From contig NZ_JFKC01000002.1 in assembly GCF_002115805.1 (NCBI RefSeq), forward strand, positions 1 to 64,000: a DNA stretch of 64,000 nucleotides, in the 5' to 3' direction. This DNA comes from Marivita geojedonensis. GTDB lineage: Bacteria; Pseudomonadota; Alphaproteobacteria; Rhodobacterales; Rhodobacteraceae. The notes under the pieces were generated by a model. It worked only from the letters and a program-made list of their open reading frames with translations, searched no databases and was not told the DNA's origin. Shown here in pieces: positions 7,148-34,689 of the stretch. The position numbers and the translations under genes were made by a program. Every line of letters starts with the position of its first letter. The first letter of the stretch is position 1.

Positions 7148-7354
7148 ACTGAGCGGCCCCATTCGATCGGTCCAAGTAGAGAGCTAGTGCATGACCGGCC
7201 TCTGATCCATCGGGATGACAGGTTCGGGGCCTTAGGTTCATAGCCGAGCGTGCTGTGCGGCCGTCACCGCTAGATTTCACACGGCCAGTCGTCCCGCGCA
7301 TGGATGAGTTGGCCCGCAGCCGCCAAAACCACGATGTCGGCGTAGCGCCCGCCC

Positions 7355-8242
7355 TCAGAACATTCCGCCGTGCGCCTTATAGCCCCTTTCGTCGATAGAC
7401 TGCAGCGCATGGTAGCGTTTCACCCCGACCGCATGGTTCGACATGATATTGGCGGCGCGGATGAACCATTCGTTACGTTCATCTTCTGACTGCACCTTCA
7501 GTTCGTCGTGGTTGACCTTGTGGTTAATCCAAGGGCCGGCCATCAGCAGTGATATCGTCTCGCGGTGGTGGTCGCAGACCGAGTGAGCCAGCCGGTCTGC
7601 CGAATACTCTTGTGCGCGGATCGTGCTGACACCCAAAACAGGGATGAGGTTCGGGAGGAAGGTGATGATCAGGCGCCAGAGTGACACGTGGCGCAGGCGG
7701 TGGTGGGAAAGTTCGTGGGCGATTACGAATTCGACCGTTTCGGGGGACCGGTCCATCAAGAGCGCGATCTCGGCGAAGATGACGACGTACTTGTAGCGCG
7801 CGTTGCAGGACAAAGCATAGGCGTTCACCACGCCATTACCGTTCTTCACGTATAGCCGGGGCGGGTTTTCCATACCCATGCGCTGTGCGACGTCTTGATA
7901 GAGCGTCCAGATCTCGGGGAACTGGTTCGGGCCGACCCGCACCGCATTCGCCTTGTCCATGGCGATCCGGTAGAACCGCGTGAGGAAGATGATGACTGGC
8001 GCGGCAAGAAGAAGAAGTGCGTACTGGCCGAAGTCGCTGGCATCCTCAGTGGCTGCATCTGTCACCGCGCCCGAGTCCTCTTGCGCCAAGAAGCTGGCGA
8101 GGCCGAGGATCAGCACGAGGATCGAGATGATATAGGCCACGGTGACTAGCGGCATCTCCCACCTGTGGCGGTAGCGTTCGGGGCTGGTTTGTGGGTTGGC
8201 GAAAGCTGCGGCTTCGGGGCGAATAGCGGAGGTGTCTGCCAC
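7355..8242 (-). CDS. M48-family membrane zinc metallopeptidase
   Basis: The protein is 295 residues. Two membrane segments lie near residues 30-52 and 70-92. The zinc-binding HExxH is VIAHELSHHRLRH, and the third ligand is the glutamate of RAQEYSADRLAH. This is the layout of M48 peptidases such as HtpX, which degrade misfolded membrane proteins from the cytoplasmic face. The C-terminus ends with a short SIDERGYKAHGGMF tail. It is convergent with the exported-protein operon and stands alone on its strand. No accessory domains are present. Assignment is firm at family level; the substrate is unknown. Confidence 0.88.
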   Translation of the reverse strand: MADTSAIRPEAAAFANPQTSPERYRHRWEMPLVTVAYIISILVLILGLASFLAQEDSGAVTDAATEDASDFGQYALLLLAAPVIIFLTRFYRIAMDKANAVRVGPNQFPEIWTLYQDVAQRMGMENPPRLYVKNGNGVVNAYALSCNARYKYVVIFAEIALLMDRSPETVEFVIAHELSHHRLRHVSLWRLIITFLPNLIPVLGVSTIRAQEYSADRLAHSVCDHHRETISLLMAGPWINHKVNHDELKVQSEDERNEWFIRAANIMSNHAVGVKRYHALQSIDERGYKAHGGMF

Positions 8243-8620
8243 TGGAAATTCCCTTTAGAGCTTTTGTGACATTACTCTACGGGGCTTTGACGATTTCTTG
8301 GAGCGCTAGTTACTTGTGTCCGTAGGCTTTGGCGGCGCCCAGTATGAAACTTGTGCTCAGTGCTGCACTCTTCATAAAGTCCAGATCCAAGACGAGGCCG
8401 CGCTTCTGGTCCGCACCATAATTCACCTTGGCCAGGAGCCGCGCAAGAGAAGCGGGCAGTCGATCCAGCCGTCGACAGGCAAGATTGGGCTCGATCCGGC
8501 CTTTCGCAGCACATAACACGAAAGCCTGCTCTCGGCGCATCCAGCGTCGTCCAGGCTTGTGTGGAGTTGATGTGTTTGGAGATTTCGCCGAGTTTCTGTG
8601 TTTCAAGAGTGGGTTCAGTT

Positions 8621-8869
8621 ACTGTGTTCCAGTTACTGTGGGCAAACACTGTGTTGCGAACAGTATGGTCAACACAGCGATTCCAAACACTGTGGTCAAC
8701 ACAGTCTTTCAGCCAGCCCAGCGCCATTTCAACGCACGAAAAACTGTGCGATGAGTGTGCAACGCACGAACTAAAAACTGTGCGATGCGCAAGTGGCTTG
8801 TTTTTATGACTAAAGTGGTGCCCGGGGGCGGAATCGAACCACCGACACGAGGATTTTCAATCCGACCAC
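8621..8869 (-). repeat. Attachment-site repeat, copy A (arms plus tRNA-Phe 3' half)
   Basis: This is a 249-bp sequence identical by eye to 35396-35644 and about 90% identical to 58054-58303, all in the same orientation. The first ~190 bp hold repeated ACTGTG or its complement (8621, 8635, 8648, then inside CACGAAAAACTGTGCG and AAAAACTGTGCGATGCGC). The last part is a tRNA-Phe fragment. Clustered short repeats next to a tRNA core are typical of integrase arm sites. Sequences to the right differ at each copy, marking element boundaries. Confidence 0.8.
8816..8863 (-). other. tRNA-Phe(GAA) 3' half, att core A
   Basis: Read on the minus strand, this is the anticodon loop TTGAAAA, the 3' anticodon strand, TCGGTGGTTCGATTCCG (T arm) and the acceptor end CCCCGGGCACCA. 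The 5' half (D arm and acceptor 5' strand) is missing; the sequence diverges just 5' of GGA. It cannot make a tRNA. It is the usual footprint left when an element integrates into the 3' end of a tRNA gene. Confidence 0.85.
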
Positions 8870-9104
8870 TTCGTTGCGCAATCTTTCCTGCGACCAGAAT
8901 GGCGATACTCTTAATCTGCGGTGACGAGTTCGCGATAGTTTGAGCTCCATACAGAGTACATCTGTGTTTTCACTACACAGTCTACACTGTTCCCGACCGT
9001 GCGTTGCAGGAGGCTAGATTTCTCCTCCCGTCTCACGATGAAAGAGTTTTGCTCGAAGGTCCGGAATCCATATTATTGTGACTGAAGAAGGCGCATATCG
9101 CGTT

Positions 9105-9395
9105 GCTATCGTGAGGGTGACCATCGGCCATGACGTCTGGATCGGGCACGAGGTGACCATCGGAACAGGGGCCGTGATCGGTGCGGGGCAGTTGAGACAC
9201 GCGATGTTGCGCCCTATACGGTTGTGGGAGGCATTCCCGCGCGTCCCATCAAACAAACGCCGATTTACCGAGGCACAGGCCGAGGCGCTGCTGGAGATCG
9301 CCGTCTGGGACTGGCCGAGAGAGACATACAAAGCGGCATTGCCGGACATACGGGCGCTCGACATTGATGCCTTCATTGAAGAATATCGCCGCTGA
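9105..9395 (+). pseudogene. C-terminal fragment of a hexapeptide-repeat acetyltransferase, frameshifted
   Basis: The frame reads VTIGHDVWIGHEVTIGTGAV, a left-handed beta-helix repeat of CatB/DapH-like acetyltransferases, and ends with LLEIAVWDWPRE and DIDAFIEEYRR, the usual tail. Between about 9190 and 9255 the family sequence continues in another frame (DVAPYTVVGGIPARPIKQ), then returns. Two compensating frameshifts and the missing N-terminus show decay. It overlaps the start of the next gene by about 29 bases. Confidence 0.7.
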
Positions 9396-9930
9396 CTCAC
9401 CGCCCGAGCAACCCGCGCGCCGTATCTTCGACACTGGGTTCCTGTTCCTGGCGCTGTCTGCGCTTCTGGCTGGTGTGTTGGTTGTCGTGCTAAAGGGGTG
9501 GGAGCGAGCGGTTGAAATCGCGTTGTCCGAGCTGTGGTTCATGACCGTTCTGGCCCCAAAGATAGCCGCGGGCATGTTCATCGCGGCTACGCTGCCGCTG
9601 CTACTGCCCCGCGATAAGGTGGCGATCTGGATCGGACGGGAAAGTGGTCTTCGTGGGCTGCTTCTGGCAGCTTTAGCGGGAGCCGCGATTCCTGGCGGTC
9701 CGGCGATGACCTTTCCCCTGGCGGCGAGTTTCGGTCTCGTAGGCGCGGATGTCGGCGCGATCATGACCTTCGTCAGCAGCTGGGCGCTGCTCAGCCTGAA
9801 CCGCACTCTGATCTGGGAATTCTCGTTCCTGCCGGTCGATTTGGTCTCGTGGCGCATTCTTCTGTGCCTTCCGGTGCCGATCCTGGTCGGGATGGCCGCG
9901 CGGGCGGTTTTTGGGCGGAGTTCCGAGTGA
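9367..9930 (+). CDS. Permease half, DUF318/UPF0718 (YraQ-like) family, first subunit
   Basis: The protein is 187 residues with about five hydrophobic segments. The glycine/proline-rich motif AALAGAAIPGGPAMTFPLAA is the family's conserved membrane loop, and FVSSWALLSLNRTLIWE follows. Members are predicted inner-membrane permeases of uncertain substrate; some sit in metal or arsenic loci. The next gene encodes a homologous half and overlaps by four bases (GTGA), so the two probably form one transporter. ATG 9367 is chosen over TTG 9364. Confidence 0.75.
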   Translation: MPSLKNIAADSPPEQPARRIFDTGFLFLALSALLAGVLVVVLKGWERAVEIALSELWFMTVLAPKIAAGMFIAATLPLLLPRDKVAIWIGRESGLRGLLLAALAGAAIPGGPAMTFPLAASFGLVGADVGAIMTFVSSWALLSLNRTLIWEFSFLPVDLVSWRILLCLPVPILVGMAARAVFGRSSE

Positions 9931-10409
9931 ACATTCTCATTGGAACAGTCCTGCTGGGAGCCGTGGCGCTGTGGCTTTACTTGCGCCTGCCCAATGCCGA
10001 ATGGCGCGCCGCCGGGATGGCGAACGCCTGGCGCATGGCGCAGTTCACCGCCCCCCGGATCATTGTCGCACTTCTGGGGGCCGGATTCTTTGCCGAGCTA
10101 TTGCCTCCCGAGAAGGTGCGCGCATTATTCGGAGAAGGAGCAGGCGTGTCGGGTGTTCTTCTGGCGATTGCCTTGGGTCCGATCACGCCGGGCGGGGCCT
10201 TCGTGGCTTTTGCGGTGGGGGCGGCTGCACTCAAGGCGGGGGCCACATCGAGCCTCGTCGTGACCTATGTCACGGCGTGGTCTCTTTATTCCGCGTCACG
10301 CTTTCTGGCCTATGAACTGCCGCTGATGGGCCGCCAATTGGCCTTGCGTCGGTTGATCTTGTGTCTGCCAGTGCCCTTCGTGATTGCCGGCGCTGCGCAT
10401 GTATTCTGA
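9927..10409 (+). CDS. Permease half, DUF318/UPF0718 family, second subunit
   Basis: The protein is 160 residues, starting at GTG 9927, which overlaps the previous stop by four bases and implies translational coupling. About four hydrophobic segments are present. The family motif is GPITPGGAFVAFAVGAAALK, followed by TYVTAWSLYSASRFLAYE, parallel to SSWALLSLNRTLIWE in the first subunit. The pair looks like a split or duplicated permease. Substrate unknown. Confidence 0.75.
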   Translation: MNILIGTVLLGAVALWLYLRLPNAEWRAAGMANAWRMAQFTAPRIIVALLGAGFFAELLPPEKVRALFGEGAGVSGVLLAIALGPITPGGAFVAFAVGAAALKAGATSSLVVTYVTAWSLYSASRFLAYELPLMGRQLALRRLILCLPVPFVIAGAAHVF

Positions 10410-10497
10410 GCGCAACCGTGTCGATTCGCTGCTCGCGCTGGTGTGGTTGATGCGACCAGTTGCGTCCCGACTTGACCTCTGACAGGAGCCTGTCTGC

Positions 10498-10641
10498 ATG
10501 CCTGACAGTCAGATCGAAACCGAACGTCTGATCCTGATGCCTCCGGCGCTGGAGCATCTCGACGCCTATGTCTCATACTGCGCGAGCGAGCGTGGCCGCG
10601 CTAGTGAAGTCGCATTTCCGATTCAAGTGCCGTCTGCGTAG
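10498..10641 (+). pseudogene. N-terminal fragment of a GNAT acetyltransferase
   Basis: The frame starts MPDSQIETERLILMPPALEH and continues LDAYVSYCASERG, the first strand and helix of RimJ/RimL-type GNAT acetyltransferases (normally ~175 residues). It then runs into unrelated residues and stops after 47 codons, overlapping the end of the convergent PLP-enzyme gene. The acetyl-CoA-binding core is lost, so the gene is dead. The breakpoint is near 10600-10620. Confidence 0.7.
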
Positions 10642-11558
10642 ATATGGCCTCCCAGATATTTCGAGCCTGTATCGCAGCACAAGGTGACCACGCGTTTTGA
10701 CGGCCCAAGTTCGCGTGCGATCTCTATGGCCGCAACAACGTTGAGCCCGGTGGATCCGCCTCCAAACACGCCTGCGTCGCGCGACAGTTTCCGACACATG
10801 TCGAACGCCAATTCTTGATCGATTGCACGGCACTCGTCCACTTTGTCTCGATCTAGAAATGGCGGCTCGAATCCAACACCGATCCCCTCGACCCGATGCG
10901 GGCCACCCTTGCCGGTTGTCAGAAGCGGCGACTGCAAGGGTTCGAGTGCAACAATCTTCGGCTTAAGCCCAGTTCTTGCAAGACCGTCAGCCGTTCCCAT
11001 CAAGGCAGCTCCGGTGCCCACAGCGGCTACCAGTACGTCGATCCCCTCGCCAAGATCCGCTGCGATTTCTTGCCCCATGGGCTCATAACCTGCGCGAACG
11101 TCCGGTGACCCGAACTGGTCCGCGTAGTGACTGCCGGGTTCCTCTGCCAACGCGTGTGCGCGCGCTTTCATACGCTGGATGAGATCTGGAGTAATGGTGC
11201 CGTCTTCACTCTTTTCTACGAGAACCTCAGCACCGAAGGCCTGCATGGCTTGACGTTTGCTTTCGGAAAACGCGTCAGAGAAAACCGCTGTAAACTTCAA
11301 ACCCAGGACGGCCGAGACGAACGCAAGGGCCGTCCCTGTGCTCCCGCCCGTATATTCTACGACCCGGTCACCTGCTTTCAATTCCCCTCTCGCCATTGCG
11401 CGACCGAGAACCGAGACAGCCATTCGGTCCTTATAGGACCCCGTAGGGTTGCCGCCCTCCAGTTTGATCCATATTTCGGCGCCGTTTTCCGGCTCGAACT
11501 GCTTGAGCCTGACAAGAGGAGTGTTGCCGATCGCCCCCAAGGCGTCTTTTGTCCGCAT
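10623..11558 (-). CDS. PLP-dependent beta-family enzyme (cysteine synthase-like)
   Basis: The protein is 311 residues. The PLP lysine is Lys ~43 in NPTGSYKDRMA. The substrate-loop motif is EYTGGSTGTALAFV, and the PLP phosphate loop is VGTGAALMG. The C-terminal GGSTGLNVVAA is also typical of the O-acetylserine sulfhydrylase / cystathionine beta-synthase fold. The loop TGGSTG instead of the TSGNTG typical of CysK suggests a different substrate. No sulfur genes are adjacent. Reaction probably beta-replacement or beta-elimination on a serine derivative; exact product not assignable. Confidence 0.8.
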   Translation of the reverse strand: MRTKDALGAIGNTPLVRLKQFEPENGAEIWIKLEGGNPTGSYKDRMAVSVLGRAMARGELKAGDRVVEYTGGSTGTALAFVSAVLGLKFTAVFSDAFSESKRQAMQAFGAEVLVEKSEDGTITPDLIQRMKARAHALAEEPGSHYADQFGSPDVRAGYEPMGQEIAADLGEGIDVLVAAVGTGAALMGTADGLARTGLKPKIVALEPLQSPLLTTGKGGPHRVEGIGVGFEPPFLDRDKVDECRAIDQELAFDMCRKLSRDAGVFGGGSTGLNVVAAIEIARELGPSKRVVTLCCDTGSKYLGGHIYADGT

Positions 11559-12059
11559 ATCGCCCTCTATCTAGGTCAGAGATCGAAGCCAATTGTTATC
11601 GCTCATTGTCGTCCCATCAACGGGCAATTGAGCATTTCGTAGGGGCCAGCTTCGGCCGCTTCTAAATCATTCAACGAGAGCCCTCCAAAAGGCCGCATTC
11701 AGACGCTAAGCCGCCAAGAGATCGCTCTCCAGCTTCTCAAACAACGAGACATCTTCCTCGGGGCTTTCGAATAAGCGCGTCCGCCGTAGGGGATACGAAA
11801 GAACGTGAAGCTGTTCGTTTGTGCGCTCGTGCGGACTGAGGTTGGTGCCAAGTAGGTAACCACCGGTATGAAGGACCGCTTGAACCCAATTCAGGTAAAT
11901 TAAGCTGTATTGAAAGGCACGGCTGGATCTTGAGCATCGGAAATGAACACGATGGCAGTGACGCCTAACAGTCGATGGGCTAAGCGAGAAAGAGTGCCAA
12001 ATTCAGCTCAGTAGAAGCGAGCGCACCACGTTTGTTGTGCATGGTGCGCTCCATAAAGA
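11559..12059. other. Decayed intergenic region with an integrase 3'-end remnant
   Basis: No intact gene is seen in these 500 bases. A 64-bp stretch matches the 3' end of the integrase gene at 38739 (listed separately). The rest gives only short random frames. It appears to be the scar of a lost integrase region. Confidence 0.55.
11708..11771 (-). pseudogene. Remnant of the 3' end of a tyrosine recombinase gene
   Basis: This 64-bp segment matches 38741-38804 with one mismatch by eye. On the minus strand it encodes FESPEEDVSLFEKLESDLLA, the last residues of the integrase at 38739-39490. It lies ~2.8 kb from the left boundary of element 2, as the larger copy lies ~3.1 kb from that of element 3. 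It shows that element 2 once carried the same integrase. Confidence 0.8.
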
Positions 12060-12797
12060 TCAACTCTCGAGTTGCTCGCTTAGGAAGGTGGAAAAGGCGT
12101 CCCAGCTGGCTTGATCCGCGCGCTCTTGGTAGCGGCTCGAGCCGAAGACGGTAAAAGCGTGGGGGGCGTTCGAGTAAACCTTGATGGAATAGACGTTGCC
12201 CGACGCTTCGAGTTCGGTCGCGAAGGTTGCAACATCTTGCATTGTGATGGATGTGTCGGCTCCTCCGTGGAATACCAGAACGGGCGGTTCGTTCCCGTCC
12301 CAAGCTTGACCCACTGGCGTACCTAGCCCCCCGTGGAATGTCGCAAAGCCACTGACCATTTCCGCCATTTCGCTCCGCGCCATTTCCAAAGCCACTGCGC
12401 CGCCAAAGCAATAGCCGGTCACGACCATTGCGTCAGTTTCCGAGCGTGAAAGCGCTTGATCTACCCCAGCTTTGATTAGCGTACGCATGCGTTCACGGTC
12501 TTGATACAGCGCTCCCGTTGCAGCGCGCCGGTGATCCATGGTCTCTGTTGGTGTTTTATCACCGAACATATCCAATGCGAACGCATTGTAGCCCATTTCC
12601 GCAAGCATATCTGCGCGTTTGCGTTCGTAATCGGTCATACCATCCCAGTCATGAACAATCAGAACCAGGCCCTTCGGGTCGTCCGCTTGCGCCCAATAGC
12701 CGGTAAAGGCTTCGCCATCGACGTTGTAAGAGACGTCGTTAGCGAAAGCGGGGGTGGCGAGAAGAAGTGCTGTTGCAAGTGTTGATATAAAACGCAT
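12060..12797 (-). CDS. Exported dienelactone hydrolase-family protein
   Basis: The protein is 245 residues with a signal peptide (MRFISTLATALLLATPAFA). The alpha/beta-hydrolase fold is clear: VLIVHDWDGMTDYERKRADM, then the nucleophile elbow VVTGYCFGGA with cysteine as nucleophile, VLVFHGGADTSI for the acid, and NAPHAFTVFGS for the histidine. The C-D-H triad is that of dienelactone hydrolases, which open lactone or enol-lactone rings in the cytoplasm. Export to the periplasm is less usual, so the substrate may be an environmental ester. ATG 12797 is used because it starts the signal peptide and follows GGAGG. Confidence 0.82.
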   Translation of the reverse strand: MRFISTLATALLLATPAFANDVSYNVDGEAFTGYWAQADDPKGLVLIVHDWDGMTDYERKRADMLAEMGYNAFALDMFGDKTPTETMDHRRAATGALYQDRERMRTLIKAGVDQALSRSETDAMVVTGYCFGGAVALEMARSEMAEMVSGFATFHGGLGTPVGQAWDGNEPPVLVFHGGADTSITMQDVATFATELEASGNVYSIKVYSNAPHAFTVFGSSRYQERADQASWDAFSTFLSEQLES

Positions 12798-26527: not shown

Positions 26528-28945
26528 TCAGGCGAATCCGTCGAACGGATTGTCGATCACACCCGCGAGCTGAATGATGAAGGTGTCTGAGTCCGGCTCT
26601 CCGGCCTCAGTTGCCCATCCGTCGATCAGGTCCTTTGCCTCTCGCAGGCTGGTGATGCGGTCGAGTAGGTCATAAGTCGCCAATGCGGTGGTGGCATCGG
26701 GGACGTCCGACAGCCCGTTGATGGCCGCGAAGTAGAGACCGAGATCGACCTGGTCCTGCAGTGTCTGCACATCGACGGCGGAACCGGTTGGTGCCCGGGC
26801 CCCTTCGTCGATCAGGGTGAAGAACTCGGGCACCGAGATCACGCCCAGCTCCAGAAGCCCGGTCCAGAAGACCTTGCCTGCAAGATCGACCTCGCGATCG
26901 AAGAAGTTCTGGAATGCGGCTTCTACGATCTCTTCCGAGCTGGGGGCAGCACCGTACAGAGCAATCGCTTCAGGGCTGTTGATGAAGGCCTGAGCAATCG
27001 TCGCCTCCTCGAGCCCGTTGGCCAGCTGCGTTGCCCAGAAGAAGAGGCCAAGTGCATCCGGAGCCCGGTTGAAGAGACCCACGTAGAACTGGGTGATCAC
27101 CTCCAGTTGCGCTTCTGTCAGGCCAAGGACACCCGCATACCCATCCAGGTCGAACGTCGTGCCCGAGTCCGGCGCTCCTGCCGGGTCGTCGCCGAAGCGA
27201 AGCGTTTCGATACCGATCAGCAGATCCGACCCGTCACCGTCTGCACGGCGGTCGGTGACGATAACCCCTTCCGGCGTGATGGCGATCGTATAGTAGCCCG
27301 CCGGTCCCCTGAACACCGCAACATCCGCATCCCCGGGGCCGCCGTCGAGCAAGTCATCACCTGCGAGACCGACCAGCGTGTCATTACCGCCGAGGCCCCG
27401 CAAATGGTCGGAAATCTGTGTGCCGATGAGCAGGTCGTCGGTATCGCCGCCGCCCTGATCGGTGTCGGGAACGACAAAGCTCAGCGCCACGCTGTCCTCG
27501 GGGCCGGAGCCAAGAGTGGGATCGTCAAGCTCGATCACCAGATCGAGCTGCGGTGTCGACACCGGGTCCAGTGCGATCCCCGGCTTGAGGTAGAGCGCAC
27601 CTGCATCAAGCTCGAACACCGTCGCATCCGACCCCGTGAGGCTCAGCAGGTTGCTTCCAGTGCCGTCGTCGAGGATGGTAACGGAGGCCACCTTGAGGCG
27701 GTCCGGACCCGATACCCCTTCGGGAAGCGCAGAGAATATCTGGGAAACCGACAGTTCCGGGGCCTCGTTGACATCCGTTATGGTGACGCTCAGCGGAACG
27801 CTGTTGCCGGCTCCCCCAAGGGTTGGGTCGCTCACCGTCACTGTCAGGTCGAGTGTCGCATTGGTCTCGTGGTCCAGAGCAGTCCCCGCCCTGAGGAACA
27901 GCGACATGCCATCGATTTCGAACAGGCCCGCGTCCGGTCCGGTGATGGACAGAAGATTTGTTCCCAGGCCGTCGTCTGCAATCATCAGATCCGCGACTTT
28001 CAACCGGTTGGACAGGGCCGTGTCCTCGGGCAACGAAGCGGTCGTGCCGGACAGCGTCAGAGTCGGAGGAAGATTGCTGGGGACATTTTCAAAGACAGTG
28101 AGATCGGCAGACCCGCCATTGATCGCATTGGCGGTTGCGGTAATGGTCACGGACTGACTGCCATCGAGGATGCCATCGTTCACCGCAGCCACCGTGAAGC
28201 TGGCGGAGTCATTTCCGACACCGATCACCACAGAGCCGGGCACAGTCGCCTCGGTGAGATCACTTGAGGTCAGGTAGACCGTCAACGCGGTCGATGTATC
28301 TCCGGACCGGGTTACGGTTCCCGTCGCCACGCCCCCGGTTTCCGCGATGCTGGTGGGCAGCAGCTCAACCGTCAGGTTGCCGAGGCGCTGCAACTCGACC
28401 GCACCCAGATCGACAAAACCTGCGCCATCATTGCCCACGCCCGGCAGATCGACCGCGCGTGGAAACCCTTGCGCGTCCGTTGTGAGACCTGAAACAGGAG
28501 ATACCTGGTCAAGCGCGGGGTTGGCCGCGTCGGCCAGCAGCGCGACGGTCTCGACCGGCCCGCCATTATCCGCCAGAACACCCGCCGTGGTGCTTGCGCC
28601 GCCCACGGTCAACGTCTGCGTCTGCGCAAACACCTCGTCCGCCGAAATCCCGGTGGCCTGCTCGACCCCGTCGATGCTGAAGCTGTCGCCGACGATGTTG
28701 CCGCCCGTGAGCGCGAGTGTCGCGCCGGGATGAATGCTCAACTCATCGTCTGCCGTCTGCGCCGACAGGTTGCCGACCACAAGGCTGTTGGTCAGGGTTA
28801 TGGCACTATTACGAGCGTACAGACCGCCACCTTCAGCAGTTGCACCCGTCGTAGAGTTCCCGGTGACGGTGCTATTGGTCAGCGTCACGTTGCCAAAGCG
28901 GGTATGCAGCCCGCCACCATTGGCAAATGTTCCCAGTGTGGAGTT
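26528..28945 (-). pseudogene. Truncated giant adhesin-like protein: beta-helix, Calx-beta, cadherin-like, RTX, DUF4214
   Basis: About 805 residues remain; the 5' end is cut by the IS5 element at ~28945. The remaining start is beta-helix repeats (LTNSTVTGNSTTGAT, GGGLYARNSAITLTNS) with a choice-of-anchor-Q style stretch. A Calx-beta domain follows (VTRSGDTSTALTVYLTSS), then two cadherin-like repeats (NLPPTLTLSGTTASLPEDTA, NEAPELSVSQIFSALPEG). RTX calcium-binding nonapeptides come next (LGGNDTLVGLAGDDLLDGG), and a C-terminal DUF4214 domain (EVITQFYVGLFNRAPDALGL). Intact proteins of this kind are secreted by type I systems and act at the cell surface. Lacking its own promoter and N-terminus, it is probably not functional. 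Confidence 0.8.
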
Positions 28946-29569
28946 ACGGTGGCGCGACGCGCCTGCGGATTATGGTCCGCACAAGACGCTGTACAACCGT
29001 TGGAAGCGGTGGAGCGACAAGGGTATCTTCGCTCGAATGATGACAGGTTTGGCCGCAGATCACGGAGAAAAGAAGACTGTTATGATCGACGCCACATACC
29101 TAAAGGCACACCACACAGCGACCAGTTTGGGCGTCAAAAAGGGGGGCGCGGCCGCCTGATCGGTCGGACAAAGGGTGGTATGAACACCAAGCTGCACGCC
29201 ATCTGCGACAGCCAGGGCCGCCCGCTCAACCTGTTTGTCACCGCAGGTCAGGTCAGCGACTACATCGGAGCGCGAGCTTTGCTGAGCAGTATTCCTGATG
29301 TTGACAGGTTACTCGGAGATCGCGGCTATGACGCAGATTGGTTCAGAGAAGCGTTGAAAGACAAAGGGATACGCGCCTGTATCCCCGGTCGAAAGCAGAG
29401 AAAGACGACGATCAAATACGACAAGCGCCGATATAAACGGCGCAACCGCATCGAGATTATGTTTGGCAGGCTCAAGGATTGGCGACGCGTGGCGACACGC
29501 TATGACCGCTGTCCCAAGGTCTTCCTCTCAGCCATCGCACTCGCTGCTGTCGTGATCTACTGGTTATGA
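28946..29569 (+). pseudogene. IS5-family transposase, two frames joined by programmed frameshift, N-terminus missing
   Basis: Frame A reads LRWRDAPADYGPHKTLYNRW, then WSDKGIFARMMTG, MIDATYLKAHHTATSLG and ends at 29159. Frame B continues RGRLIGRTKGGMNTKLHAIC, then SIPDVDRLLGDRGYDADWFR and MFGRLKDWRRVATRYDRCPK to 29569. The shift point is the slippery run A5G6 at 29136-29146, as in IS427-group elements that make the full transposase by frameshift. DDE residues are visible at MIDATY, LGDRGYDAD and the final RIEIMFGRLKDW region. About 40 N-terminal residues are missing. Confidence 0.82.
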
Positions 29570-29740: not shown

Positions 29741-30496
29741 ATGGCTATGCCTGCTGACAGCCGCGACTACGCTGGTATGGCGCATGATAATCGCTCCCGA
29801 CTCCATTGGCTTGACGTCGCGCGGACGGCGGCGCTCTGCGGCATGATCGCCTTCCACTTCGTCCGCGACATGGAGATGTTCGAATTCATGCCTCCGGGAA
29901 CGACGCTTGGCGGCTTCTGGGCGGTCTTCGCCCGACTAGTCGCGGGCTCTTTCCTACTCCTGTCGGGGGTCAGCTTTGTTCTAGCCCATGGTGATGGCCT
30001 TCGGCTGAAAGCGTGGGCAAAACGAATAGCTGTCATCGCCGGTGCCGCGGTCCTCGTTTCACTCGTAACCCGCCTGGTCATGCCGCATGCGTGGATTCAG
30101 TTCGGAATCCTTCACGCGATTGCCGCAGCAAGCCTTCTCGGTGTGATATTGCTTCGCGCGCCAGCACTCGTAACAGCGGCTGCAGCAAGCGCGGTCCTGG
30201 GATTATCGTTTGTGCTGGGGCGTAGCCTCGATCTACCCTCGTGGATGGTCTGGACGGGTCTCGGCGCGGCAGTGCCGCCATCGCTCGACTACATCCCGCT
30301 CGTACCTTGGCTTGCCCTATTCCTGATCGGCATGGCTCTTGCACAGGCCGTCGATCCCGCTCGGTTGGAACCTCGCTGGAAGACACCGCCACCGCTTGCC
30401 CTGACGCTACCCGGGCAACACAGTCTTCTCATCTACCTCGTTCATCAACCGATTCTGATCGCCATTCTCGCCGCGTTTTCTTGGGTTCTGCGGTAG
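29741..30496 (+). CDS. DUF1624 (HGSNAT-like) multi-pass membrane protein
   Basis: The protein is 251 residues with about seven hydrophobic segments. The start RLHWLDVARTAALCGMIAFH is the typical first helix and charged turn of DUF1624 proteins, related to heparan-alpha-glucosaminide N-acetyltransferase and acyltransferase-3 families. GSFLLLSGVSFVLAHGDG and YIPLVPWLALFLIGMALAQ follow, and PGQHSLLIYLVHQPILIAI ends the domain. Members may acylate envelope sugars, but most are uncharacterised. ATG 29741 follows GGGAG. It is monocistronic or leads into the following lipoprotein pseudogene. Confidence 0.8.
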   Translation: MAMPADSRDYAGMAHDNRSRLHWLDVARTAALCGMIAFHFVRDMEMFEFMPPGTTLGGFWAVFARLVAGSFLLLSGVSFVLAHGDGLRLKAWAKRIAVIAGAAVLVSLVTRLVMPHAWIQFGILHAIAAASLLGVILLRAPALVTAAAASAVLGLSFVLGRSLDLPSWMVWTGLGAAVPPSLDYIPLVPWLALFLIGMALAQAVDPARLEPRWKTPPPLALTLPGQHSLLIYLVHQPILIAILAAFSWVLR

Positions 30497-30532: not shown

Positions 30533-30829
30533 ATGAAGAAGATCAAGATCACGGCAGCGCTGTCTGCTGCGTTTGTTCTGGCGGGCTGCGTTGAGGATAC
30601 GGGCGGCGTGGTGACATCTTCCTCATCGGCGGCGGAGCAGGCGTGCCTGCAGCGCGTGTCAATCGAGACCAAGAATGCAGATGTGTCTGTGCTAAGGTCT
30701 AGCTTTTCCTAGGCTGGGACGGAAGTCATCGTCGGCGTGGGACCCCAGCAAGCACCATGGCAGTGCATTGCCTATAGCGACGGCTCGACCATACGTCCGA
30801 TGTCTTTGACGAACGAGGGCTTTTTGTGA
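30533..30829 (+). pseudogene. Small lipoprotein gene with an in-frame amber stop
   Basis: ATG 30533 follows AGGAGGA. The protein begins MKKIKITAALSAAFVLAGCV with lipobox VLAGC, then EQACLQRVSIETKNADVSVL. TAG at 30710-30712 interrupts it, where a glutamate or glutamine codon would differ by one base. The same frame continues AGTEVIVGVGPQQAPWQCIA, then YSDGSTIRPMSLTNEGFL to the stop at 30827-30829. The conserved continuation shows a recent nonsense mutation. It resembles the lipoprotein at 4366 in layout. Confidence 0.75.
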
Positions 30830-30879
30830 AGCCGGTGCCCAGCCGCACAAATGGCGGGGCACCCTTGAAAGGGAGAAGA

Positions 30880-31545
30880 ATGCAAGTGGAACCTAGAATC
30901 TTCAAGGCAGCGGTGTTGGCCGTGATTGCCTCTCTGAGTGTTGCAGGCACGGGCAAAGCCGATGTAAACGCCCGAGACGGTGGCCCGTCGCGTTCGGAAA
31001 TGCTCGCACGAAGCAACACGGGCGCGCCCGACGGCAGCGCCTTCTTCCGTCCGGTCCTTGACGGGGTCTTATATCGCGGAGGTTTCTCAGGCGGAGACAA
31101 AGGCCGCACCGGCCTCTCCTCGTCACAGCGGGAGGCTCTCTGTTCCGAAGGCTTCTCTCGTGGCTTCTATGCCGATTTCGGAAAGAACACTGATTACGGT
31201 GTAACATCTTGCGGTGATGGCAATTTCGACTATCAGGCCGCACGTTCCTCAAGACCTGCAAACGTGATGAAGGCGATCCACGACGTCATCAAGAATGGTG
31301 ACGGACCGGTCTACGTCCATTGCATGTGGGGCGTTCACTCCTCGGGCGCCCTTTCGGCTATGGCGCTGGTCCAGTTCTGCGGCTGGTCCGAGGAGCGTGC
31401 CAAGGAATACTGGAACGACGCACGCAACGGCGCCCCATGCTCAGGTGGTTGCGACAAATGGATCGACGCAAAGTTCGACCGCTTCTCAGTAGATCAGAGC
31501 CTGTCGATCAGTGACGCCGAGCGCGCCGCGATTTGCCCCAAATAG
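30880..31545 (+). CDS. Exported protein-tyrosine-phosphatase-like protein with altered P-loop
   Basis: The protein is 221 residues with a signal peptide (AAVLAVIASLSVAGTGKA). The fold pattern is that of dual-specificity/PTP-like phosphatases: VLDGVLYRGG near residue 60, a helical middle, and the P-loop GPVYVHCMWGVHSSGALSAM around residue 148. The active-site HC is present, but the arginine expected six residues after the cysteine is Ser ~154. It may be inactive, use another residue, or act as a phosphate-binding protein. Four further cysteines (AICPK, CSGGCDK) suggest disulphides. ATG 30880 follows GGGAGAAG. It is the first gene of an apparent four-gene operon. Confidence 0.7.
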   Translation: MQVEPRIFKAAVLAVIASLSVAGTGKADVNARDGGPSRSEMLARSNTGAPDGSAFFRPVLDGVLYRGGFSGGDKGRTGLSSSQREALCSEGFSRGFYADFGKNTDYGVTSCGDGNFDYQAARSSRPANVMKAIHDVIKNGDGPVYVHCMWGVHSSGALSAMALVQFCGWSEERAKEYWNDARNGAPCSGGCDKWIDAKFDRFSVDQSLSISDAERAAICPK

Positions 31546-31556
31546 GATGTTCGAAG

Positions 31557-32981
31557 ATGCGCCTTGTTCTTTCTGTTGCAGCCCTGCTTTTGCCGACTGC
31601 CCTTTGCGCATCGGATGCGGTTGAAGGTGACGTCACTGTTTTCGAAAGCCCGAACGGAGTGGCCGAACGCTGCGTCCGCATCAAACCGCTCCCCGGCGCA
31701 GAATACTCGAAAGATGATCTGGAAGATGAGGCAGCTTTCTGCGCCATCAACTTCTATGCCTCTGACGTGGCGCTTTGCCCGAAAACATGGAGCACAAGCC
31801 CTGGAATGATGGTCTACGACATCAGCGCAGGGCCTTATGCAAATGACCGTGCCGCGTTCGAACGGAATGCCTGCAAGGAAGGGAAATCGGCCAAGGATCT
31901 GGCAAAAGACGATCTCGCCAAGTTCAAGGTAACGATGAACCAGAAGGGAACCAGCGGCACCTTTGCACCGTCATCCCTGCTCTACTACCACTTCTCCCGC
32001 TACTTTGACATGATCGTCCATGTTCCCGTGTCAGTCTGGCGTTCAATGGACAAGGAACGTCATGCAACTGAGGTCGCCAAGCCCGGACTAGCGATCTCGG
32101 GTACACACGCACGGATGAACCATGAAGGCTGGCGTTGGCTGGTCGAAAGTGAAGCAAATCCCTCACTTTATTCGCCGACCGATGATCTTTTCACGACAGA
32201 CCGCAAGAACATATACGGCGTAATGGTTCTAAGTCCGGGTCACCGGTATGGGGCCGAAATCAACGGAACGAGGAAATCCGGCTGGGGCAAAGGACAAAAC
32301 CTTGATTTTCAGGAAACCCCGGCCTTCCTCGCACTCCGGACCGAGGCGCCCCTGCGTGACGCAATTGCACGTGGACTGGCCGAAGGGCGCAAAGACAGCA
32401 CGATTTCCAAGGATCTCGGGCCAGATGTAAGCGAGGAACAAATGGCTTACTGGATGCGCGAGCTGTCCGAAATTGTCCTGCTGGATTTCATCTTCAGCCA
32501 GCAGGACAGGGTCGGAAATATTGACTTCACGCCCTACTACTACTGGGCAGAAGGGGGCGACCTTGAACACAAGAAGGCCAAGCACCACGAAGCGGGTGAC
32601 GGAACCGTCCCGGAAGGCGCGCAGCTGATCCGCCGGACGAACCTCAATGACAATGACGCAGGCGGACGTGTCCAATATGCAAACTTTGCTAAATCAACAC
32701 AGATGTTGGGAAAGCTTCGTCATTTCGATGCCGGCGTGTATCGAAAGCTCGTAGCACTCGATGCGGACCTGCAGTCTCAGGGACCTATCTACCAGTGGAC
32801 AGCAAACAGCCTTGGCCTTAGCGAAGGAGAGGTATCACAGATCGTCAAGAACACTGAGTTGGCGACCCGGATATTGCAGGACAGCTGCCGACGCGGAGAC
32901 CTGATCTTCGACCTTAACCCGAAAGAGTTCTTCCTGACCGGCGACACGACCCCGGACGACGTGGATTGCGATGCTGACTGA
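31557..32981 (+). CDS. Exported kinase-like protein (atypical, Fam20/PI4K/CotH-like pattern)
   Basis: The protein is 474 residues with a signal peptide (MRLVLSVAALLLPTALCAS). I do not recognise the family, but three blocks resemble atypical kinases. Residues 122-165 have KFKVTMNQKG and SSLLYYHFSRYFD, then VHVPVSVWRSMD, like the lobe where a lysine binds ATP and a partner helix follows. Residues 308-323 (LLDFIFSQQDRVGNID) match the catalytic-loop pattern D-R-x-x-N. Residues 363-369 (LNDNDAG) could be the metal-binding aspartate. This suggests an extracytoplasmic kinase. It follows the phosphatase-like gene by 11 bases and overlaps the phosphoesterase gene by 11 bases. Function is inferred, not established. 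Confidence 0.55.
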   Translation: MRLVLSVAALLLPTALCASDAVEGDVTVFESPNGVAERCVRIKPLPGAEYSKDDLEDEAAFCAINFYASDVALCPKTWSTSPGMMVYDISAGPYANDRAAFERNACKEGKSAKDLAKDDLAKFKVTMNQKGTSGTFAPSSLLYYHFSRYFDMIVHVPVSVWRSMDKERHATEVAKPGLAISGTHARMNHEGWRWLVESEANPSLYSPTDDLFTTDRKNIYGVMVLSPGHRYGAEINGTRKSGWGKGQNLDFQETPAFLALRTEAPLRDAIARGLAEGRKDSTISKDLGPDVSEEQMAYWMRELSEIVLLDFIFSQQDRVGNIDFTPYYYWAEGGDLEHKKAKHHEAGDGTVPEGAQLIRRTNLNDNDAGGRVQYANFAKSTQMLGKLRHFDAGVYRKLVALDADLQSQGPIYQWTANSLGLSEGEVSQIVKNTELATRILQDSCRRGDLIFDLNPKEFFLTGDTTPDDVDCDAD

Positions 32982-33861
32982 TACGTTAATCGCGGGCGGC
33001 ATTGCAATCGTCGTTGCGTCGCCTGCGGTCGCATTGCAAGTTGCCGTAATATCGGACCTTAATGGATCATATGGCTCTACAGACTACGGGAGCCAAGTCG
33101 CGGACGCGGTATCCGCGATATTGGAACTCCATCCTGACTTGGTTCTCGTGACAGGTGACATGGTCGCGGGCCAGCGTAGACCGGTCCTCGCCACAAGCGA
33201 AGTCAAGGCAATGTGGGATGCTTTTCACGCGATCGTCACCGAGCCACTAACGTCTGCCGGCATCGCTGTGGCCGTTACCCCCGGGAACCATGACGCGTCG
33301 GCCTACGACGCTTTCAGGGCAGAGCGGAACGTCTATGCGAAAGAATGGCGCGACAGGCGACCTGACGTGTCCTTCAGTTCGGACGAAGAATACCCTTTCT
33401 CCTATGCCTTCGACGTCGATGGGGTGCGTTTCGTATCGCTAGATGTGACGACAGTCGGTCCGTTGTCGGCCGACCAGGTCGTGAAACTTGAGAGCGTATT
33501 TGAGGGCGCCGGCGAGACCCGCATCGTCTTCAGTCATCTTCCGTTGTGGGAATTTGCACAGGGTCGCGAAACCGAGATTATCGGTGACCCAGAACTGGCT
33601 TCGGTCTTCGAGACGCTGGGCATCGATCTGCATCTCTCCGGGCATCACCATGCTTTCTATCCGGGAGCGTCGGAGGGCATCGCCTATGTCGGTCAGGCCT
33701 GCCTTGGTGCCAGCCCGCGTAGGCTCATGGGGGCGTCAGACCGTGCGCCGCGCGGATTTACCCTTCTCGACATCGACGTTGACACCGGAGACATTGTTAT
33801 TGATTTCCGGGCGTCTCCCGATTTCACCAATCGATATGACCACGCTTCCGCCTCGTCTTGA
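32971..33861 (+). CDS. Exported calcineurin-like metallophosphoesterase
   Basis: The protein is 296 residues with an N-terminal hydrophobic signal (LIAGGIAIVVASPAVA). Metal-binding motifs appear in order: AVISDLNGSYG (the usual DxH reads DLN), LVTGDMV, TPGNHDAS, VFSHLPLWEF and LHLSGHHHAFYPG. The fold hydrolyses phosphomonoesters or diesters with two metals. The change of the first histidine to asparagine may lower affinity for one metal. The start codon overlaps the end of the kinase-like gene, implying coupled translation. With its neighbours it suggests a periplasmic phosphorylation cycle. Confidence 0.82.
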   Translation: MLTDTLIAGGIAIVVASPAVALQVAVISDLNGSYGSTDYGSQVADAVSAILELHPDLVLVTGDMVAGQRRPVLATSEVKAMWDAFHAIVTEPLTSAGIAVAVTPGNHDASAYDAFRAERNVYAKEWRDRRPDVSFSSDEEYPFSYAFDVDGVRFVSLDVTTVGPLSADQVVKLESVFEGAGETRIVFSHLPLWEFAQGRETEIIGDPELASVFETLGIDLHLSGHHHAFYPGASEGIAYVGQACLGASPRRLMGASDRAPRGFTLLDIDVDTGDIVIDFRASPDFTNRYDHASASS

Positions 33862-33930: not shown

Positions 33931-34689
33931 GTGACCAAGACGCTATCTTATCTTCTGCTCGGTCTCATCGCACTTACGGCACCCTTAGCCGCCCAGACGA
34001 TCGAGGGTGCAATAACGATTCCTAGCGAGTTCGATATCCATGATCGCGGCTGGGCGCAGTTGCGTGACCTTGAAGAGGTGAGTGAGTTCCTGTTTGCCCT
34101 TGTCGAGGCGATGGCAATGACCGCAGCCATTGCCTTTCATCCGCGCATCGTCGCGCGCCGCCGGGGCAGCAACGACTGGGACCTGCCGCGGTCGATGTTT
34201 CTATACGCATTGATCGGCTTGGTCGTCGGTTTCCTCGTCATTCACCACGGCGTACTGATAGGATTCGTGGTCTTCGGAATCGGTGGACTATTCCGGTTCA
34301 GAATGGAGACGCTCAGCGCTTCGGACACTGCGCTGATGATCTTCGTGGCGCTGATCGGTCTGTCGATCGGTCTGGATTTGCCGGTTATGGCCCTGCTCCT
34401 GACGATTGCTGCGGCCGTTGTTCTTTCTGTCTTTTCCCGGCAGTTGCATATCTCGATCGAGATCAAGTTTGACAACACGGAAGATTTCACCGGAAAGGTC
34501 GCGCGGCTACGCGATGCTCTGTCGGCCGAGGGCTTCGCGACGCGCACGGTCACGAAGTCGAAGTTCAAACCGTTTGCTGAGATCGTGCTTTCGACTTCTG
34601 AGGAGAGCCCAAGTGAAGCCTTGGCAGCTACCCTTACAAAGCACCAGGCTAAGCCAGATAGCGGCATTGAAGATTGGCACATCGAATAG
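33931..34689 (+). CDS. DUF4956 membrane protein
   Basis: The protein is 252 residues, starting at GTG 33931. A signal/first helix (YLLLGLIALTAPLAAQTIE) is followed by membrane segments at ~52-70, ~88-112, ~130-155 and a C-terminal cytoplasmic domain. The family motif is GLFRFRMETLSASDTALMIF, then VALIGLSIGL; compare the canonical RFR...DTA of DUF4956. The C-terminal part (HISIEIKFDNTEDFTGKVAR) has an ACT-like look. DUF4956 genes often sit with CotH-kinase and polyphosphate-polymerase (VTC) genes, which fits the kinase-like gene here. It is the last gene of the operon. Confidence 0.75.
   Translation: MTKTLSYLLLGLIALTAPLAAQTIEGAITIPSEFDIHDRGWAQLRDLEEVSEFLFALVEAMAMTAAIAFHPRIVARRRGSNDWDLPRSMFLYALIGLVVGFLVIHHGVLIGFVVFGIGGLFRFRMETLSASDTALMIFVALIGLSIGLDLPVMALLLTIAAAVVLSVFSRQLHISIEIKFDNTEDFTGKVARLRDALSAEGFATRTVTKSKFKPFAEIVLSTSEESPSEALAATLTKHQAKPDSGIEDWHIE

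Follow-up and report, generated by a model that had tools for sequence, protein, structure and literature searches.

The window analysed here, a stretch of 64,000 nucleotides from contig NZ_JFKC01000002.1 of the alphaproteobacterium Marivita geojedonensis, contains a gene that raises the question of whether bacteria possess an exported family of kinase-like proteins outside the named kinase families. A first-pass annotation had suggested such a family from four short stretches lying in the order expected for the lysine, catalytic Asp/Asn and metal-binding Asp of atypical kinases. The structural model and the alignments support this idea and sharpen it, pointing to a new family of predicted exported kinase-fold proteins in marine bacteria, with the Fam20 kinases as nearest relatives. 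Fam20 kinases have so far been discussed as an animal family, and one survey describes the FAM20 cluster as specific to eukaryotes or to Metazoa (PMC9758233). An exported bacterial family would bear on the origin of the Fam20 fold.

The Kinase-Like Gene and Its Conserved Residues

The gene, its product and the features referred to below are the following.

31557..32981, plus strand: gene of the kinase-like protein, ATG to TGA, open reading frame of 474 amino acids
Product of this gene: predicted exported kinase-like protein, residues 1-20 signal-peptide-like, residues ~43-456 predicted kinase fold (basis: open reading frame, model, Fam20 fold matches and N-terminus)
31776..31802, plus strand: family signature CPKTWSTSP, residues 74-82, with C74, P75, K76, S79, T80 and S81 invariant in 62/62 rows
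31926..31928, plus strand: K124, candidate ATP-binding Lys, invariant in 62/62 rows, in strand 118-125 of the model
32505..32519, plus strand: putative catalytic loop D317-R318-x-G-N321, with D317, R318 and N321 invariant in 62/62 rows
32649..32657, plus strand: putative metal-binding motif D365-N366-D367, invariant in 62/62 rows

All four stretches quoted in the first-pass annotation are carried by this frame in the order claimed, with KFKVTMNQKG at residues 122-131, SSLLYYHFSRYFD at 139-151, LLDFIFSQQDRVGNID at 308-323 and NDNDAG at 364-369; the listing of open reading frames also gives an alternative upstream start, a TTG at 31533. For the alignment, 61 of 80 homologous loci were used, L068 having been dropped for an in-frame stop and 18 others as close relatives of retained rows. 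In the resulting 62 rows, 41 of the 474 positions are invariant, including K76, K124, N128, D310, Q315, Q316, D317, R318, N321, D365, N366, D367 and A368; by residue type, the invariant positions take in 5 of the protein's 40 Asp, 4 of its 18 Asn and 2 of its 25 Lys. The candidate lysine, catalytic Asp and Asn and metal-binding Asp are conserved among homologues, as the proposal implied. At these rates, the chance of K124, D317, N321, D365 and D367 all being invariant is about 2e-5, a rough figure which treats positions as independent and counts, for each quoted stretch, a residue picked by the analyst. Addition of L101, a distant homologue of 27% identity, leaves K76, K124, D310, Q315, Q316, D317, R318, N321, D365, N366 and D367 invariant, along with C74, P75, S79 and T80, which together with K76 make up the signature (CPK..ST).

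The suggestion that no named family fits has been borne out. The window protein has no Pfam match at E<=1, and the 62 homologues, scanned singly, have none to a kinase family at the same threshold. NCBIfam gave no match for the window protein and no kinase family for 20 homologues at E<=0.1, and PADLOC gave no match for the kinase-like protein. Searches of PDB sequences with the single protein and with three profiles reached no named family; weak matches to phosphorylase kinase and STENOFOLIA were rejected as chance, the wrong regions being aligned. A literature search whose scope took in few subscription papers or preprints found no paper on bacterial or Fam20-like families of this kind.

Predicted Fold and Relation to Known Kinases

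An AlphaFold2 model built from the 62-row alignment has a pLDDT of 93.8 and a pTM of 0.92, and the fold predicted with this high confidence is a kinase fold; a non-kinase fold was not found. When the model was compared with the PDB by Foldseek, 25 matches were obtained at E<=0.001, with a probability of 1.00 and a lowest E of 1.3e-5, and each of the 25 is a chain of Fam20A or Fam20C; a steroid kinase follows at E 0.33; the TM-scores to Fam20 are modest, at 0.34-0.54. The best VIA alignments are to hydra Fam20 (Z 18.3, 281-285 residues, 3.8-4.1 A), with DrFam20C1 at Z 16.9, PI4KII-alpha at 15.3, Helicobacter pylori CtkA at 12.2, CotH at 9.9 and HipA at 9.1. Altogether 54 of 862 compared chains reach Z>=8, and all 50 of the 50 entries listed are of kinase fold, HipA and lipid kinases included. 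The first-pass annotation had named Fam20, PI4K and CotH as the matches to be expected, and each has been recovered, Fam20 as the best. While fold and residue conservation have been established computationally, an enzymatic activity, with its donor and substrate, would be a deduction from them.

The resemblance to Fam20 (Fam20B/C, hydra Fam20 and Fam20A) comprises the fold, a secreted location (predicted here), the order of Lys, catalytic Asp and metal Asp, and cysteines of disulfide type. K124, D317 and D365 have been paired with these Fam20 residues by order, strand position and invariance rather than by superposition. In Fam20C, the substitutions K271A and D478A are reported to abolish ATP binding (PMC5413348), and in hydra Fam20 Asp152 is described as pairing with Lys133, Asp299 as the catalytic base and His301 as contacting xylose (PMC5865150). 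Several differences stand against this resemblance. The acid of the Kb3-Ka3 loop (Glu213 in ceFam20, Asp152 in hydra) is absent from the window family, in which no Glu is invariant and acidic residues occur in at most 11% of the 62 rows at every position from 121 to 150; an acid from elsewhere may take its place. Nor does the family keep the His with which Fam20B contacts xylose, at +2 from the catalytic Asp (His301 in hydra), position 319 being V in 60% of rows and otherwise I, L, F or P among the rows listed, and because of this absence xylose specificity is not expected. The catalytic and metal Asp of the window protein lie 48 residues apart, a longer spacing than the roughly 20 residues of human Fam20C. 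The Asn of the putative catalytic loop follows the catalytic Asp by four residues, where the usual kinase spacing is five. The window family also differs from Fam20 in its bacterial operon setting.

The Pfam Fam20C model (PF06702) has no match at E<=1 in the window protein or among the 62 members. The same model found nothing in the window's own genome (0/1 at E<=10), a weak test of absence since the controls were silent too, and in 398 genomes of the phylum it gave one weak partial match and none over the cut-off, which says little for the same reason. Because the Fam20C model finds no match and the Kb3-Ka3 acid is absent, the window protein is regarded as Fam20-like, at most a Fam20-fold enzyme, and is not classed as Fam20.

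Other kinases are more distant. PI4KII and PI3K share the kinase fold (PI4KII at Z 14.0-15.3) and a DRxxN-like loop, but their Z-scores lie below those of Fam20, the PI3K chains listed by Foldseek have E values of at least 0.54, and the window protein is predicted to be exported. CotH, bacterial like the window protein, is an atypical kinase, and its alignment (Z 9.9, 237 residues, 4.2 A) falls well under those of Fam20; the 62 members contain no Pfam CotH match at E<=1.

Evidence for Export

The proposal that the protein is exported finds support in its signal-peptide-like N-terminus and in the disappearance of a pair of cysteines from the sole clade devoid of a signal peptide, signal peptides having been called with a hydropathy window rather than with SignalP. 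A strongly hydrophobic N-terminal stretch is present in 55 of 62 rows, of which 54 keep both C39 and C62 (the exception being L064). In each of the remaining seven rows, from Thiothrix and relatives, one or both of these cysteines are gone. Since these seven rows form one clade, with a support of 100/100, the loss of signal peptide and cysteines is taken as a single event. The pattern is the one to be expected of a periplasmic disulfide and a return to the cytoplasm. In this clade, too, the catalytic residues are invariant, and ATP would be available there; the periplasm normally offers none.

Operon and Partner Genes

Three genes close to that of the kinase-like protein in the window belong to the same arrangement.

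30826..31545, plus strand: partner 1, DSP/TpbA-like protein, predicted exported, with the loop HCMWGVHSSG (DSPc E 0.0032, below cut-off; TpbA alignment)
32971..33861, plus strand: partner 2, calcineurin-like metallophosphoesterase, predicted exported (Metallophos 6.5e-14)
33931..34689, plus strand: partner 3, DUF4956-like membrane protein (DUF4956 E 4e-4, 20.5 bits against a cut-off of 30.6)

The stop codon of partner 1 precedes the kinase-like ATG by 11 bases, and the ATG of partner 2 overlaps the end of the kinase-like gene by 11 bases. Profile searches across 81 loci, namely the 80 relatives and the window, have revealed a typical order of DSP-like, kinase-like and metallophosphoesterase genes, close to which lie genes for a beta-propeller and for a membrane protein resembling DUF4956; partners were counted only in loci with enough flank. 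On this basis, the DSP-like gene lies immediately upstream of the kinase-like gene in 56 of 77 loci and the phosphoesterase downstream in 62 of 76. Of 53 loci, 41 have a DUF4956-like gene no more than 4.5 kb away, 36 have the propeller and 36 the full set of five; in the nine of these 53 that have no DSP-like gene, the DUF4956-like gene occurs in 0/9 and the phosphoesterase in 4/9. The window operon is without the propeller, and in the distant homologue L101 a DSP-like gene adjoins the kinase-like gene. Since two further phosphate-linked genes share the operon, a function in phosphorylation is likely.

Partner 1 resembles TpbA in its predicted export and aligns with it through the HCxxG active loop. 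It differs in that the Arg of the CX5R motif, for which Arg138 is given as the conserved PTP arginine of TpbA (PMC4409338), has given way to Ser (as in the window) or Ala in all 58 of the 58 copies detected, with the Cys kept, and L101 has Ala there as well; a conserved His stands one position before the lost Arg. This loss indicates that partner 1 is probably not an ordinary phosphatase. Partner 2, judged by its HMM match, appears to be a normal calcineurin-like enzyme, and its metal motifs are kept in most copies (GNHD in 66 of 68 detected frames). Partner 3 is by sequence a remote relative of DUF4956, a match at E<=0.01 having been obtained in 8 of 19 members. Its model comprises a helical bundle and a C-terminal ACT/ferredoxin-like domain; the fold search with it returned no convincing whole-protein match, only the C-terminal domain matching small folds (best E 0.012). 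The beta-propeller partner gave matches to SdiA-regulated and phytase-like models in all 12 cases.

In Gram-positive pel loci, DUF4956 is described as lying next to genes for a polyphosphate polymerase and a CotH kinase (PMC7112168). This likeness, in which CotH genes also lie beside DUF4956 genes, may be read as a parallel and is not a test. A link to polyphosphate was sought and found unsupported in the window's own genome, where a VTC polyphosphate polymerase was detected in 0/1 and the controls matched in 3.

Distribution of the Family

In the family draw, 17 of 295 genomes match the kinase-like protein, including G013, which has only a weak 51-residue match (L018) and has been excluded as a member. 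Only 1 of 385 genomes drawn from the class and 2 of 398 drawn from the phylum match, the window's own genome being among the matches in both draws, which indicates a sporadic family. Across 84,980 species genomes, 97 relatives were detected, 80 of which were kept. These are found mostly in Roseobacter-type Rhodobacterales, as well as in Thiothrix and other Gammaproteobacteria, with further relatives in metagenome-assembled genomes labelled Desulfobulbaceae, Acidobacteriota, Bdellovibrionota and Aquificaceae, labels which may be wrong. The collections of plasmids and phages held no match to the kinase-like protein. An incomplete relative lies at the end of an IMG/VR contig labelled viral (L103 5001-5573), which is likely bacterial DNA. 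The window's own genome holds a second kinase-like protein, 74% identical, on another contig (L104), and the 14.2-kb contig in question (G000:C36) carries a complete copy of the five-gene operon at 7260-12145.

Proposed Function and Alternative Explanations

The reading that we favour, and consider moderately probable, is that of an atypical kinase of Fam20-type fold which is exported and phosphorylates a substrate in the cell envelope, with co-encoded partners that reverse or read the modification. The fold, residue conservation, export signal and operon used in its favour have been computed, and from them the catalysis, donor, substrate and partner roles are inferred. The kinase-like protein would be exported to the periplasm or beyond and stabilised by a disulfide, and it would transfer phosphate to a protein or glycan of the envelope. 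The catalytic base would be D317, with K124 and D365/N366/D367 holding the metal-nucleotide. The calcineurin-like phosphoesterase would be the likely eraser of the phosphate, and the Arg-less TpbA-like protein may serve as a regulator or as a reader or sensor of the phosphate; coupling of the set to the cytoplasm may fall to the DUF4956-like membrane protein. Several findings count against this reading: the missing acid, the modest TM-scores, the lack of a kinase HMM match, the spacing of the Asn and the lack of periplasmic ATP. Activity is the main doubt, because the Kb3-Ka3 acid is missing and the donor is in question; with the absence of this acid, which forms an ion pair needed by Fam20C, a pseudokinase or a different transferase becomes possible.

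A pseudokinase would be a kinase-fold binder or scaffold that regulates the phosphatases or another enzyme, much as Fam20A does for Fam20C. The inactivity of Fam20A has been attributed in part to a Gln at the Asp152/Glu213 position (PMC7948968, PMC5865150), and the loss of the PTP Arg from the operon partner in every detected copy suggests that the module may concern binding rather than catalysis. A dead fold, however, has no need of the invariant K124, D317, N321, D365, N366 and D367. The missing helix-C acid also has a precedent, since E91 could not be identified in the Legionella kinase-like families Lani_1194 and Lcin_0519, in a survey whose text describes key residues as well preserved in almost all of its kinase-like families (PMC9758233). 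A pseudokinase is regarded as rather unlikely, though it deserves more weight than a different chemistry at the retained active site, which is considered improbable. AMPylation, glutamylation or another nucleotidyl transfer of the kind seen with SelO or SidJ could be envisaged, as could phosphotransfer from a donor other than ATP. The unusual invariants outside the core kinase motifs (C74, P75, K76, S79 and T80), the predicted location without ATP and the DUF4956-like partner, whose Pfam relatives adjoin CotH and polyphosphate polymerase in pel loci (PMC7112168), speak for such a transfer; yet the sequence points to no particular donor, the own genome holds no VTC polymerase match, and the best structural relatives are phosphotransferases. 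That an unrelated enzyme resembles kinases by chance, with a coincidental motif order, is highly improbable. The lack of a kinase HMM match and the chance nature of the weak PDB profile matches would fit it, but the confident Foldseek matches to 25 Fam20 chains, the length and score of the hydra Fam20 alignment, the uniformly kinase-fold VIA entries and the naming of the motifs before the fold was computed bring it close to refutation.

An envelope system unlike those described, combining an extracytoplasmic Fam20-fold kinase, a donor other than ATP and an Arg-less PTP-fold reader, is a quite improbable outcome; such a donor could be, for example, polyphosphate or a lipid-linked phosphate, with the DUF4956-like membrane protein as its route of supply. 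If true, this system would also turn the Fam20 fold into a bacterial one instead of one specific to animals. Under the favoured reading of an exported kinase, this family, with the two phosphatase-type genes that are fixed parts of its operon, would allow phosphorylation beyond the cytoplasm of bacteria to be put to the test. The supply of a phosphate donor to an extracytoplasmic kinase becomes testable as well, with the natural signal-less clade as a control.

Neighboring Genes

Further genes have been noted beside the operon. Directly upstream in the window (29741-30496) lies a gene for a membrane protein of HGSNAT_cat type (heparan-alpha-glucosaminide N-acetyltransferase), homologues of which occur in 5 of 81 loci, by median position close upstream of the operon. 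Small, mostly exported neighbour proteins form a recurrent cluster in 32 of 81 loci, built by single linkage and therefore possibly mixing families; an open reading frame resembling them, L104 5594-6223 (plus strand), has no Pfam match. Adjoining L101, a second exported kinase-like frame of another family is found at L105 5176-6339 (plus strand), with TQQWDRYSGGNV followed by YMTDNGGADL and an EIAAFNL helix. The C-terminal 287 residues of this frame have no Pfam or PDB sequence match, and the frame is oriented convergently with the two genes for the DSP-like and kinase-like proteins. Elsewhere in the window, an RTX/DUF4214 gene (26528-28888, minus strand) abuts a DDE transposase of IS4/5 type (28730-29569, plus strand, in two frames), whose insertion may have cut the RTX gene in its 5' portion.
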